Made by a program: the position numbers and the translations under genes. Shown piece after piece: positions 1,888-9,937 of a stretch of 10,425 nucleotides of DNA. Each line of letters opens with the position of its first letter. The first letter of the stretch is position 1. The notes beneath the pieces are model-generated. The model made no database searches and was not told the DNA's origin. It worked only from the letters and a program-made list of their open reading frames with translations. The stretch is from NCBI GenBank assembly GCA_024278345.1, contig JAJRTK010000166.1, positions 1-10,425 of the forward strand, read 5' to 3'. Origin of the DNA: a bacterium (lineage in GTDB: Bacteria > CSSED10-310 > JAJRTK01).

Positions 1888-2428
1888 CCGATGGAGAGTG
1901 GCGCAGGCATTTTGCCCGCGCAGTGCTGCCCGGCTTTCGCGGATGCGGAGAAGAGACCCGCCCGCCGCCGAGATTGTCAACTGGGTCTGATCTGCCCCCT
2001 GGGAGCGTCCCGGTGCAGGGTTGGTCGTGAGAAGGGGGCTTTTGTGGGAAAGAAGATTCAACGGCATGAGATTCTTGGATCGGTACTGGAGGAGCGCCTG
2101 GGGATGATGTCGGGGAAAAGGGTGCGGAAGTTGGAGAGGGAGCGTCGGAGCTATTTTCGGTTGGACTACTTGTGCGTGGCGAGGGAAGGGGAAGGGGGAG
2201 CTCCAGGCGGTGGTGGAGAGGATTTACCCTTTGGCCATTTCAAGGAGCTGAATCTCATCGAGTACAAGAGCGCGTTCGAGTCTTTGAGCGAACAGACGTT
2301 CCGCAACTATGTAGGTCGGGCCTTGTTGGTGGAAACAGAGGAGCGAGGGAAGAGTTACCAGGGCCGTTTGACGCTGACGATTGTGACGAGCCGCCGTCCG
2401 CGGGCTCTTCTGAAGTGCGAGGAGTATG

Positions 2429-2436
2429 GTTTTGAG
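2429..2436 (+). repeat. 8 bp target site duplication, left copy (GTTTTGAG)
   Basis: Identical to 2693-2700 on the other side of the element. Collapsing the two copies restores codons GGT TTT GAG CGA in the rpn frame, which confirms it as the insertion scar. Confidence 0.9.
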
Positions 2437-2459
2437 GGCCATCCACGTAAGGCGGGACA
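2437..2459 (+). repeat. Left terminal inverted repeat of element copy 1
   Basis: Twenty-three bases beginning GGCCATCCACGTAAGG and ending GGGACA. It pairs with 2670-2692 with a single mismatch. Confidence 0.88.
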
Positions 2460-2541
2460 GAACACAAAAAAAAGGAAAACGCGGGGCCGAGCGAAGCGAG
2501 ACGCCGAGCATAAGCGAGGCCCACCGTACAAAAATGTGGGT

Positions 2542-2609
2542 CCAGGGAGCTGGCTCCCTGGTAGGTGCAGGGCGACGCCCTGCCAGGGGACCGGGGACGG
2601 AGTCCCCGG
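2542..2609 (+). other. Three consecutive hairpins inside element copy 1
   Basis: Perfect stems in series: 2542-2561 (CCAGGGAG/CTCCCTGG), 2567-2583 (GCAGGGC/GCCCTGC, loop GAC) and 2591-2609 (CCGGGGAC/GTCCCCGG, loop GGA), separated by 5 and 7 bases. Stems two and three have recognisable but altered counterparts in copy 2. Such an array could be an RNA fold, a terminator-like block or a recognition structure; the sequence does not decide. Confidence 0.65.
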
Positions 2610-2669
2610 ACGACCGCCGAGCAGCGCGAGGCGCCGCCCGGACGATTGGTATTTCCACAATCCATGAAG

Positions 2670-2692
2670 TGTCCCGCTTTACGTGGATGGCC
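2670..2692 (-). repeat. Right terminal inverted repeat of element copy 1
   Basis: Reverse complement of the left end except for one base (AAAG here against AAGG at the left). Confidence 0.88.
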
Positions 2693-2700
2693 GTTTTGAG
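2693..2700 (+). repeat. 8 bp target site duplication, right copy (GTTTTGAG)
   Basis: Exact copy of 2429-2436, directly abutting the right inverted repeat. Confidence 0.9.
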
Positions 2701-3138
2701 CGAGTGGAAAAGTGGAAGTACGTGAGCCATTGGGTGTTGGACTTGGAGATCGTGTTACTTGTGTTGAAGGAGATGAAGGGGGAAAGGCGTGGAGAGGCGT
2801 TGGCTTGGCTCCAGGTGTTGGAAGAGGAATGCTGGGAAGATGTGGCGAGCCAGCAGTTGGAGGATGCCGAATCCCTGGAAAGGGTGATGGCCAGTCTGAA
2901 CCGGGAGAGAACGATGATTTTGGCAGAGAAATACAAAGAAGCAGGAAAGCTGGAAGGTCGGCGGCAAATGCTATTGGAACTGCTGGAGACAAAATTTGGG
3001 GGGGTGTCTCCGGAGTGGAAGGACCGAGTGGAAAACGGGGATAGCCGGAGTGTGAGGCTTTGGGCGCGGCGGGTGTTGGAGGCCCGGCGGCTTGAGGATC
3101 TGTTTCGGCCGGAAGCCTCCCCGACGTCCGGGAACTAG

Positions 3139-3560
3139 GCTGTGTCTGACAAAGATCGTCAATTCTGGTATAGAATTGCGTGGTTTTTGAGAAAGCGACG
3201 GTGGGTTGATTATAGGAGAGATGGTCGATGGGACGGCATGAGCTGACCGACGAGCAGTTTACCCGAATTGAGCCGATGCTTCCAGTCAACACTGGGCGAG
3301 GCCGCCGATTTGAGGACCATCGCCGGGCCATTAACGGAGTGCTTTTCAGGCTTCGAACTGGAATCCCCTGGCGAGACCTGCCCGGCCGCTATGGTCCATG
3401 GCAGAGTGTGTTCGACCGATTCAATCGCTGGAGAAGAGATGGTACCTGGCTCAGGATACTGGGACATCTTCAGACCGAACTCGATGAAGCTGGTCAGCTG
3501 GATTGGTCGTTGTTCAGCATAATACTGCCTTCGTGAACTCCCTAATTTGTCAGACACAGC
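3139..3560 (+). mobile_element. Internally deleted IS5-family (IS427-like) element with intact ends
   Basis: Perfect inverted repeats of 15 bp (GCTGTGTCTGACAAA at 3139-3153 and its complement at 3546-3560) are bounded on both sides by CTAG, which fits the YTAR target duplication of IS5-type elements. The element is 422 bp, about half the usual 800-900 bp of the group. It keeps the left end, promoter region and first ~100 codons of the transposase, then jumps to the right end. Because both ends are intact it could still be moved by a transposase supplied from elsewhere. It inserted exactly at the stop codon of the rpn gene. Confidence 0.88.
3228..3536 (+). pseudogene. Truncated IS5-family transposase, N-terminal fragment
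   Basis: The 102-residue frame MGRHELTDEQFTRIEPMLP...WRDLPGRYGPWQSVFDRFNRWRRDGTWLRIL...LDWSLF is the typical N-terminal DUF4096 region of IS427-group transposases. The DDE catalytic domain should follow LDWSLF, but the frame ends with SIILPS and a stop at the deletion joint. The ATG follows AGGAGAG at seven bases. The dyad CAATTC...GAATTG just upstream probably covers the element's own promoter. The fragment has no catalytic residues and cannot transpose by itself. Confidence 0.9.
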
Positions 3561-3568
3561 CTAGAGTC

Positions 3569-3665
3569 TGTCGCGAAAATCATCTCAATGAAATCAAAGT
3601 ATTGCCGCCTCGCGCACTGTGCGAAAGCGGGTGTCCAAAGGGCAATCCTCTCTGGCAAAGTACGG
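3569..3665 (+). repeat. Diverged ~98 bp direct repeat, copy 2
   Basis: Counterpart of 1789-1887, in the same orientation, beginning four bases after the right CTAG duplication of the IS element. The first 31 bases differ at only two positions. The opening palindrome of copy 1 is broken here (TGTCGCGAAA). The remainder aligns with short gaps, including GGGCAAT and CTCTGGCAAAG. Confidence 0.7.
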
Positions 3666-4497: not shown

Positions 4498-4512
4498 TCC
4501 AAGCGCCTCACC

Positions 4513-4704
4513 AGCCCGATCCTCTCTTGCCCGTCCCGGCACGAACGCCCTCAAACGCCATCCTGCTCCACAAGCCAGCCCGATCCTCTCTTGCCCGTCC
4601 CGGCACGAACGCCCTCAAACGTCATCCTACTCCACAAGCCAGCCCGATCCTCTCTTGCCCGTCCCGGCACGAACGCCCTGAAACGCCATCCTACTCCACA
4701 AGCC
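4513..4704. repeat. Three head-to-tail 64 bp repeats
   Basis: Units at 4513-4576, 4577-4640 and 4641-4704 are nearly identical, differing only at positions such as CGCC/CGTC, CTGC/CTAC and CTCA/CTGA. The array lies immediately upstream of the preferred start of the TVP38-type gene, so it would sit in that gene's leader or promoter. There are no spacers between units, which excludes CRISPR. Such arrays vary in copy number by slippage or recombination, so strain variation is expected. Confidence 0.93.
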
Positions 4705-4752: not shown

Positions 4753-4771
4753 GGCGAGTGGCGGCGGACGG
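4753..4771 (+). repeat. 19 bp interspersed repeat, copy downstream of the ABC operon
   Basis: GGCGAGTGGCGGCGGACGG is found exactly, in inverse orientation, at 7985-8003. After it both copies share GGAACTCA and ACGCC, so the related segment extends to about 40 bp, with an 18-base insertion in the other copy. It lies about 50 bp beyond the permease stop. Confidence 0.7.
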
Positions 4772-7786: not shown

Positions 7787-8102
7787 GGTGTTGCCCTTTG
7801 CGTGGGGGAACCGCTGGCAAAAAAAGAGAGGCCCCGTTGTCAACGCCTCTCTCCGACTTCAGCCGGAAAACCAGCAGGGAGGCAGATCCAGAAGCATGAT
7901 CTGCTTGTTGGATGCCCATGGAGCACGACTCTCGAAAACCGCTTTCTTTTCCTGGCGTTGAGTTCCACTCGCGTCGGCGGCAGTCCGTCCGCCGCCACTC
8001 GCCCGTCATGCCCCCGGACAGGGCTCATTCCCCGGAAAGCACTTCACCACCTACGCGTTCAGTGCCCTCGCGAAATCTTCCGCCCGAAAAACCGATCCAA
8101 CG
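7787..8102 (-). other. Long leader of the regulator-ABC operon, no gene seen
   Basis: About 300 bases separate the likely promoter/operator from the regulator start. A minus-strand frame of about 62 codons exists here but has no ribosome binding site or family-like sequence. The stretch contains the interspersed repeat at 7985-8003 and an alternative TTG start at 7843. I see no recognisable riboswitch. Confidence 0.4.
7985..8003 (-). repeat. 19 bp interspersed repeat, copy upstream of the ABC operon
   Basis: Exact reverse complement of 4753-4771. On the minus strand the match is followed by an 18-base insertion, then GGAACTCAACGCC, against GGAACTCACGCC in the other copy. The two copies flank the regulator-ATPase-permease operon as an inverted pair. 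It sits inside the probable mRNA leader of the operon. Confidence 0.7.
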
Positions 8103-8150: not shown

Positions 8151-8366
8151 GGGCTCGTAAAGTGTCCGATTTCGTCTTTGGATCATGGACCCGGTTTGCC
8201 AGGCCGCTTGGCAAGGTTAGCTTGAGCTGAGCCGGCTTTGTCTAGCTCGTGAGCAGTAAGTTCTAGGTAAGTCATTGAAAAAACGGGGATTCACGTGTCC
8301 TGTGGCACGCAGGCGTAGAATCTAATGATTTCCATGAGTTACCGTGTTGCCCACTTCCCCGAATCC
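8151..8366. other. Short gene-free stretch before element copy 2
   Basis: No gene is seen. It contains a small hairpin, TTGCCA...TGGCAA, near 8196-8214 and otherwise unremarkable sequence up to the target site of the second element copy. Confidence 0.4.
8359..8366 (+). repeat. Target site duplication of element copy 2, left (CCGAATCC)
   Basis: Matches 8649-8656 (ACGAATCC) at seven of eight bases. The first base has changed in one of the copies. Confidence 0.75.
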
Positions 8367-8648
8367 GGGTATCAACGTAAGCCGGGACACCCGCCAAAAC
8401 AAAGACGCAACGCGTCGTACATGAATGTGGGCTGGGATCTCGTTGCCCTTTGTTGCAACGGGAAGTTGAGCGAGCTCCCTGGTGGGTCCAGGGCAAAGCC
8501 CTGCCGGGGACCGGTGCCGGAGGCCCCGGATGACCGCCGAGTAACGCGAGGCGTGACCCTTCGAGTCACGCAAACGTGACCCGCCGAGCGAGGCGTTGGC
8601 GCTTGCAATGCCACAATCCTCGAATTGTCCCGCGTTGCGTGGATGCCC
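8367..8648. mobile_element. 282 bp MITE-like element, copy 2 (decayed)
   Basis: Ends at 8367-8389 and 8626-8648 form 23 bp inverted repeats matching at 18 positions, against 22 for copy 1, and share the GGG...ATC...ACG...CGGGACA pattern. The flanks CCGAATCC (8359-8366) and ACGAATCC (8649-8656) agree at 7 of 8 bases, the expected scar of an 8 bp duplication. The interior aligns with copy 1 at AATGTGGG, GCTCCCTGGT, CAGGGC...GCCCTG, CCGCCGAG...GCGAGGC and CCACAATCC, in the same orientation. No coding capacity is seen. It lies just past the 3' end of the second rpn gene. More mismatches suggest an older insertion than copy 1. Confidence 0.85.
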
Positions 8649-8656
8649 ACGAATCC
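8649..8656 (+). repeat. Target site duplication of element copy 2, right (ACGAATCC)
   Basis: Directly abuts the right inverted repeat and pairs with 8359-8366. The same 8 bp length as in copy 1 supports a shared transposition mechanism. Confidence 0.75.
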
Positions 8657-8740: not shown

Positions 8741-8763
8741 GAAGCCTGTCTGCAACGGGCTTC
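8741..8763 (-). terminator. Hairpin at the 3' end of the second rpn gene
   Basis: On the minus strand GAAGCC pairs with GGCTTC, and GT with AC after one mismatch, around a TGCAG loop. It starts at the last base of the stop codon. No T-run follows, so it may slow RNA decay rather than terminate transcription. Confidence 0.35.
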
Positions 8764-9752
8764 TAGCCTGTTTCAGTGACGCGAGCTTTGATCTGGTCCG
8801 GAGTTGCGGTGGCGAAGATGGGGAGCCATTGCTGGAGAAGCTGAAGGTCGCCGGTGTATTGGAGAGCCTCGGTGAGCCAGGAGGGAGCCCTTCCAAACCG
8901 GGCTTCATAAGTGGCTTGCAGGGCGGAGCGCAAGGCGTCGCGCTCTCCCTCTTGTCGGCCCTCTTGTCGGCCCTCTTGTCGGCCCTCTTGTCGGCCCTCG
9001 TGTCGGCCCTCTTCGCGGCCTTTTTCGATGCCTTCGAGGTAGGAGCCCTCGGTGAGAGTGTTGTGGAGCTGCATCCAGCGGATGCGAGCTTCGTATTGCT
9101 GGCGTGTAGGGTGGTCTCCGCCGAGGCGTTCGAGTTCCTGCATGGCCTGGAGGATCTCAGGTGTTTTCCACTTTTCAAGGACGGTCTTGGGCATGTTGGG
9201 GGCCTCCTTCAAAAAAGAGATCCATTGTTCGCGTAGAGAGGATGCTTCGTGGGGGGCACGGGTGTAGCTCGGGAGCTGGAAGAGAAGGATCGTGATGTGG
9301 CGCGAGAAAGTGAGCTGTGAACGGATTCCGCGGAATTCGAAGCGTTCGTGGTAGCCGTCGAGATCCTTGAACAGTTCAAAGTTGGAAAAGATCAGCAGGA
9401 GGAGTGGATTCAGGAGGTGGTAGCCTTGGCCTTTTTTGAGCTGTTCGCCGAATCTCTTTGCGGCGTAGTAGAGCATGCGTTCCGTGAATGCGCGGTGGTT
9501 GAGGCATTGCATTTCGACGATGAAGTGTCGTCCGCGTTTGTCCTGTACGGAGAGATCGAGGATGGATTCCTTTTCGTCGGAGGTCTGAAGCTCGGAGAGC
9601 GTGCTGAGGATGGTGATGGAATCGATGGCGTCTTTGCCGTGGAGTTCCAGGACGCCGTTGAGAAGGCTTCGGAGGAGAGCTGAGTTTTTTTGTCTTCCGA
9701 AGAGAGCGCGAAAGACGACATCGATTTTGGGGTCGAGGATGGTTGGTTTCAT
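8763..9752 (-). CDS. Rpn-family recombination-promoting nuclease / putative transposase (PD-(D/E)XK), intact
   Basis: The 329-residue protein opens with the Rpn/TIGR01784-type N-terminus MKPTILDPKIDVVFRALFG. It has a PD-(D/E)XK-like core, D66 in ILDLSVQD and E80-M-Q82 in FIVEMQ (Rpn proteins often have EMQ where classical nucleases have ExK). It goes on with AFTERMLYYAAKRFGEQLKKGQGY and PLLLLIFSNF, then a charged linker of EGRQEG repeats (about 245-268) and a small helical C-terminal domain, YEARFGRAPSWLTEAL. Members act as DNases that promote recombination, but host targets are unclear. GTG 9755 directly precedes ATG 9752; I use the ATG. A strong sigma70 promoter lies 65-95 bp upstream. It is only distantly related to the split rpn gene at 2044-3138: same fold, little visible sequence identity. 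Confidence 0.92.
   Translation of the reverse strand: MKPTILDPKIDVVFRALFGRQKNSALLRSLLNGVLELHGKDAIDSITILSTLSELQTSDEKESILDLSVQDKRGRHFIVEMQCLNHRAFTERMLYYAAKRFGEQLKKGQGYHLLNPLLLLIFSNFELFKDLDGYHERFEFRGIRSQLTFSRHITILLFQLPSYTRAPHEASSLREQWISFLKEAPNMPKTVLEKWKTPEILQAMQELERLGGDHPTRQQYEARIRWMQLHNTLTEGSYLEGIEKGREEGRHEGRQEGRQEGRQEGRQEGERDALRSALQATYEARFGRAPSWLTEALQYTGDLQLLQQWLPIFATATPDQIKARVTETG
8947..9018 (-). repeat. 12 bp tandem repeat encoding the EGRQ hinge
   Basis: Four perfect units of CCCTCTTGTCGG (plus-strand reading, 8947-8994) are followed by two imperfect ones. Each unit encodes four residues, giving EGRQEGRQ on the minus strand. Because the unit is a multiple of three, gain or loss of copies keeps the frame and only changes linker length. 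Confidence 0.92.
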
Positions 9753-9816
9753 CACGAGTTGGTCGGCTTCTTTTTGTAAAGGTGAGAATGGAGCGTTGGC
9801 AGCCTATGCACGATCG

Positions 9817-9845: not shown

Positions 9846-9858
9846 GGGGGTGTGTCGT

Positions 9859-9937
9859 GCCGTTCGTAGGGGCATGGCGTGCCGTGCCCCTACGCTCGCG
9901 CCGTTCGTATGGGCATGGCGTGCCGTGCCCCGACGCT
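9859..9937. repeat. Two direct copies of a 38 bp hairpin-forming unit
   Basis: Units at 9859-9896 and 9900-9937 (period 41) differ at two positions. Copy 1 forms a strong hairpin at 9865-9894: CGTAGGGGCA pairs with TGCCCCTACG, continuing toward the loop through a T-G wobble and GGC/GCC. In copy 2 both differences fall in the outer stem and are not compensating, so its hairpin is shorter. It lies beyond the -35 box of the rpn promoter. Similar GGGGCATGGCG-type palindromes are common dispersed repeats in bacteria, so this may be one of a genome-wide family. Confidence 0.75.

Follow-up and report, generated by a model that had tools for sequence, protein, structure and literature searches.

The window, meaning the whole 10,425-nt stretch of bacterial DNA analysed here, contains two short repeats with similar ends, and the one nearer its right end (copy 2) raises the question of whether it is a mobile element and, if so, how old it is and what moved it. 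An earlier note, made from the letters of the window, had described copy 2 as a 282-bp repeat sharing end pattern, orientation and internal blocks with copy 1, and both the coordinates and the blocks agree: the two copies lie in the same orientation and their common internal blocks are 83-88% identical. The TIRs of copy 2, 23 bp each, match at 18 of 23 positions. The 7/8 duplication ascribed to copy 2 was also confirmed, and it becomes 8/8, as CGAATCCG (8360-8367/8650-8657), if both ends are moved by one base. The window was scanned for inverted repeats matching at 18/23 or better and flanked by duplications of 7/8 or better, at a spacing of 200-400 bp; copies 1 and 2 were the only combinations found, and each of 20 first-order Markov shuffles gave none. 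No transposase-like reading frame was found inside the 282 bp, an Rfam search of the window gave no match, and the genome was found to hold no paralogous empty site for copy 2.

Table. Features of the two MITE copies in the window
Feature	Position	Strand	Remarks
Copy 2, MITE without transposase gene	8367..8648	+	282 bp
Left TIR of copy 2	8367..8389	+	GGGTATCAACGTAAGCCGGGACA; left-end type of the subfamily
Right TIR of copy 2	8626..8648	-	TGTCCCGCGTTGCGTGGATGCCC; from the outer end inward, GGGCATCCACGCAACGCGGGACA
Left target-site duplication of copy 2	8359..8366	no strand	CCGAATCC; 7/8 against the right one
Right target-site duplication of copy 2	8649..8656	no strand	ACGAATCC
Hairpin module of copy 2	8489..8503	+	CAGGGC-AAA-GCCCTG; common to nearly all copies
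Internal block of copy 2	8506..8553	+	88% match to copy 1
Copy 1, MITE of the sister subfamily	2437..2692	+	256 bp

Copy 1 has TIRs identical at 22 of 23 positions and is flanked by a perfect 8-bp duplication, GTTTTGAG (2429-2436 and 2693-2700). It splits a reading frame (1891-3138) which, after removal of the element and one duplication, is continuous over 328 codons; neither half has a Pfam match. At the stop codon of this frame sits a 430-bp relic (3135-3564) with perfect 19-bp inverted ends, CTAGGCTGTGTCTGACAAA, and a 102-aa fragment of a DUF4096 (IS4/5-type) transposase. A 58-nt direct repeat of 78% identity (1776-1833 and 3556-3613) belongs to another repeat family.

The source genome (6.06 Mb in 550 contigs) was scanned for the end pattern with at most two mismatches. 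This gave 493 TIR-like ends, 246 forward and 247 reverse, against none for the reversed pattern in the same genome, corresponding to about 250 elements of the family. Of the 37 nearest left-right end pairs in the loci examined, 12 were bordered at the fixed boundary by a perfect 8-bp duplication, compared with 2 of 1,332 mismatched cross-pairings; judging from the listed flanks, both of the latter should be the L004/L034 combination, which has the flank GCGGAACG in common. Nesting, recombination and wrong pairing may explain why most nearest pairs carry no perfect duplication. One 12-mer, gggagcggaacg, precedes two MITEs of different subfamilies (L004 1485-1496 and L034 1487-1498). Collectively, the comparisons with shuffles, with the reversed pattern and with cross-pairings uphold the proposal of the earlier note that the two copies belong to a mobile family inserted at independent targets and are not a chance repeat. 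The same note had named a genome scan as the test on which its reading could fail; that scan, now run, returned further copies and many exact 8-bp duplications.

The duplication-flanked copies (n=15) are 169-646 bp long. Copies are mosaics: each end type and each internal hairpin module occurs in some copies and is missing from others, independently of the rest. Among the first 30 ends listed, 14 are no more than 300 bp from the end of a contig, against an expectation of about 5%; the repeats are therefore a probable contributor to the breaks in the assembly, and the TIR family would help to account for the fragmented state of the source genome. Copy 2 is a MITE, an already well-known kind of element: the family is short with no transposase gene, has TIRs and a fixed 8-bp duplication, is dispersed in many copies and shares its ends with autonomous elements, those of DUF6399. 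It resembles the MITEs of bacterial insertion sequences in being short, non-coding and TIR-bounded, with a duplication of fixed length, a high copy number and ends in common with a coding element. It is unlike MITEs in general in its DUF6399 partner and in its mosaics of interchangeable hairpin modules.

The lower end identity of copy 2 had been read in the earlier note as a sign of greater age and of successive waves of activity, and this part did not hold. Three members of the copy 2 subfamily (L033, L034 and L035) have the same left- and right-end types as copy 2 and carry 8/8 duplications, yet their left and right ends match at just 17-18 of 23 positions; the TIRs of L035 are identical to those of copy 2 letter for letter. 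Since siblings with perfect duplications carry the same mismatch, it is an inherited trait of the subfamily and not the product of decay. In addition, the nearest sibling of copy 2 is 97.3% identical over 222 bp, which is not below the value for copy 1 (95.6% over 250 bp). It is therefore improbable that copy 2 is a decayed relic from an earlier burst, as its 18/23 ends and its 7/8 duplication in the canonical register might otherwise suggest. The description of the two copies as the same element was right as to the core modules, which they have in common; their end types differ, and they are better regarded as members of sister subfamilies.

Copy 2 encodes no transposase. It is very probable that it is a MITE that would have been moved in trans by a transposase made elsewhere, most likely the DUF6399 protein (PF19936) of insertion sequences of 1.7-2.5 kb with the same ends. 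PF19936 is the protein family carried by elements with these ends. The end pattern, of about 37 bits, was found in at least 31 stretches of other bacteria, of which a few would be expected by chance according to our estimate. Matches in distant genomes were counted solely if paired with a duplication or beside a DUF6399 gene; a match in Trichocoleus (L119), with neither a partner end nor a DUF6399 hit, is probably due to chance. Some of the stretches form pairs flanked by 8-bp duplications that are perfect or nearly so, and in a Competibacteraceae genome (L102) the pattern bounds 1,724 bp holding a frameshifted DUF6399 gene. The 23-bp end offers a ready search string for like elements in other fragmented genomes.

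Complete DUF6399 elements were located by way of any inverted repeat and duplication around the gene, with no presupposed motif. Elsewhere, full-length elements of 1.7-2.5 kb carry these TIRs and are flanked by exact duplications of 8 bp. On the Crinalium plasmid pCRI9333.07 the element measures 2,505 bp, has TIRs matching at 23/23 and of the copy 2 type, and is flanked by the duplication cgttttct; it also contains a passenger gene of unknown function (L128 1266-1715). An element on a Thiodictyon plasmid has TIRs of a different sequence (20/23) and the duplication gtccaacc. DUF6399 elements are multicopy in two further genomes (G269 and G186) and single in two others (G147 and G257) and in a viral contig (L172), mostly with exact 8-bp duplications at differing targets. 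In the source genome, contig C188 (L122) opens inside a DUF6399 frame, which ends 12 bp before the TIR TGTCCCGCCTTAAGTGAATACCC; the contig end cuts this element off, and a full-length, two-ended copy was not recovered from the assembly. Similarity between the MITE interior and the DUF6399 element was not visible, so the ends make up the whole link between the two.

The distribution of DUF6399 was compared with that of the ends. Of 10 genomes selected through the TIR, five have the protein; the other five may be incomplete assemblies, may have lost the gene or, in some cases, may have been picked through a chance TIR match. A search of 98 relatives gave one carrier, the source genome itself. 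In the order of G106 the protein occurred in 10 of 201 genomes, in the phylum of G099 in 1 of 386 and, above the cut-off, in none of 14 controls. Four genomes chosen for DUF6399 had TIR counts of 234, 95, 28 and 14, and same-phylum genomes had counts of 0-2, the control level.

Two further observations concern the structure of elements outside the source genome. A 1,302-bp element of Crenothrix (L112 1474-2775) has an 8/8 outer duplication and right ends every ~193 bp, resembling a tandem array. Six DUF6399 elements (L145, L146, L147, L148, L133 and L172), most of them from the Methylomicrobium order, have a transposase frame with no early ATG of its own; a short ATG frame joins this frame at a conserved stretch of seven A, which suggests that the transposase is expressed via slippage or a frameshift.

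On the proposed mechanism, the DUF6399 transposase, made elsewhere in the cell, would act in trans and recognise the 23-bp ends of copy 2; copy 2 would have been inserted at staggered cuts 8 bp apart, and host repair of these cuts would have left the 8-bp duplication. Movement may have followed a cut-and-paste or a copy-out/paste-in pathway. The sequences show the element with its ends and duplications, its many copies, the full-length DUF6399 elements of other genomes and the DUF6399 gene beside such an end in the source genome; action in trans and the pathway of movement are inferences, and so is catalysis by DUF6399, for which a motif, a weak profile match and one of two structural models speak.

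PF19936 is labelled 'unknown function' in the database. The function proposed here, that of a transposase, goes with a recognisable end of 23 bp and a duplication of 8 bp; the argument for it draws first on the anatomy of the elements, second on the motif and the weak profile match, and last on the fold. The aligned DUF6399 proteins have invariant D145 (in D145-E-T-F), D200, D220-x-x-H223 and E450 (L145 numbering). The arrangement resembles the DDE triad with C/DxxH described for transposases that carry a helical insertion domain, ISCth4 of the IS256 family among them (PMC7780238), and conservation marks D145, D200, the DxxH and E450 as putative catalytic residues. The NCBIfam profile IS256_Zn_var (NF048019) matched 7 of 14 DUF6399 members weakly and below threshold, the best match (E 1.2e-6) scoring 28.1 bits against a curated cut-off of 150; the match covers the D145-D200-DxxH region. 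Two AlphaFold models (pLDDT 76.5 and 73.3) predict strands and, after them, a long helical stretch, with catalytic loops below 50 pLDDT in both. In Foldseek, the Hermes hAT transposase was the top match of the first model, although weak (E 0.013, TM 0.19); the second model did not reproduce this, with no transposase among its matches. Retroviral integrase cores aligned with one model at a Z of about 7, the loops being poorly predicted.

These data indicate that DUF6399 is probably a DDE enzyme and distant kin of IS256-type transposases. It is like IS256 in the putative D..D..[C/D]xxH..E arrangement, in a long helical stretch predicted between the second D and the E, and in the 8-bp duplication of its elements, as given for ISCth4 (PMC7780238). 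It is unlike IS256 in falling short of the IS256_Zn_var cut-off, in the sequence of its ends, in having its own C-terminus, and in the spacing from the second D to the E, which is ~250 residues, compared with 107 in ISCth4 (D241-E348, PMC7780238). No sequence match to hAT transposases was found; the likeness to this group lies in the Foldseek match of the one model and in the duplication length. Target duplications of hAT transposases are likewise 8 bp. The element appears uncatalogued in the libraries compared, which did not include ISfinder, and a named family may already exist. No paper naming DUF6399 was found among the PMC papers searched, and papers retrieved with fragments of the end string included none on such an element, judged by their titles. 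Tentatively, DUF6399 could define an uncatalogued family of bacterial insertion sequences, distantly related to IS256 and possibly to eukaryotic hAT transposases, patchily distributed among phyla and, in some genomes, the driver of hundreds of mosaic MITEs; we regard this broader proposal as possible, and as considerably less secure than the assignment of copy 2.

IS256-, ISL3- and IS66-type elements produce target duplications of about 8 bp. As several known families thus share this trait and the assembly holds no full-length DUF6399 element, the MITE might have been moved by another transposase, for example a true IS256, ISL3 or IS66 type, with the ends of DUF6399 elements being alike by descent or convergence. 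We consider this unlikely, because the whole 23-bp end type is common to DUF6399 elements of other bacteria, the same ends lie at the end of the DUF6399 gene in the source genome, and same-phylum genomes without DUF6399 are also without the ends, in a comparison that covered DUF6399 genes and the ends. It is hardly credible that the family is a REP/BIME-type hairpin repeat with no classical target duplication and flanks alike by chance: its wealth of short G+C hairpins and a folding better than that of shuffles (z of -8.5 in copy 1 and -3.6 in copy 2) would fit, but in many copies the duplication is exact over its 8 bp and fixed in position, taking out copy 1 with one duplication leaves a continuous reading frame, and the internal hairpins show little covariation.

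A role of the internal hairpins as selected RNA was rejected, since the covariation term was near zero and the predicted pairs were mostly invariant. The gene next to copy 2 was also considered as a driver. This gene (8763-9755) lies beside copy 2 and is of the PDDEXK_2 nuclease type (Rpn-like); a 12-bp tandem repeat within it (8947-9030) encodes a repeated EGRQ stretch. Only two PDDEXK_2 genes are present in the genome, the second lacks a TIR in the surrounding 2.4 kb, and no significant similarity was seen between the PDDEXK_2 protein of the window and the frame that copy 1 interrupts; the neighbourhood was therefore treated as a coincidence.

Several other repeats were seen in the window. 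A 64-bp unit is repeated three times in tandem at 4511-4704, covering the start of a VTT-domain gene and the sequence upstream. A perfect 19-bp inverted repeat, GGCGAGTGGCGGCGGACGG, occurs at 4753-4771 and 7985-8003 with 3.2 kb between its arms, and a 41-bp unit is present twice in tandem at 9855-9936.
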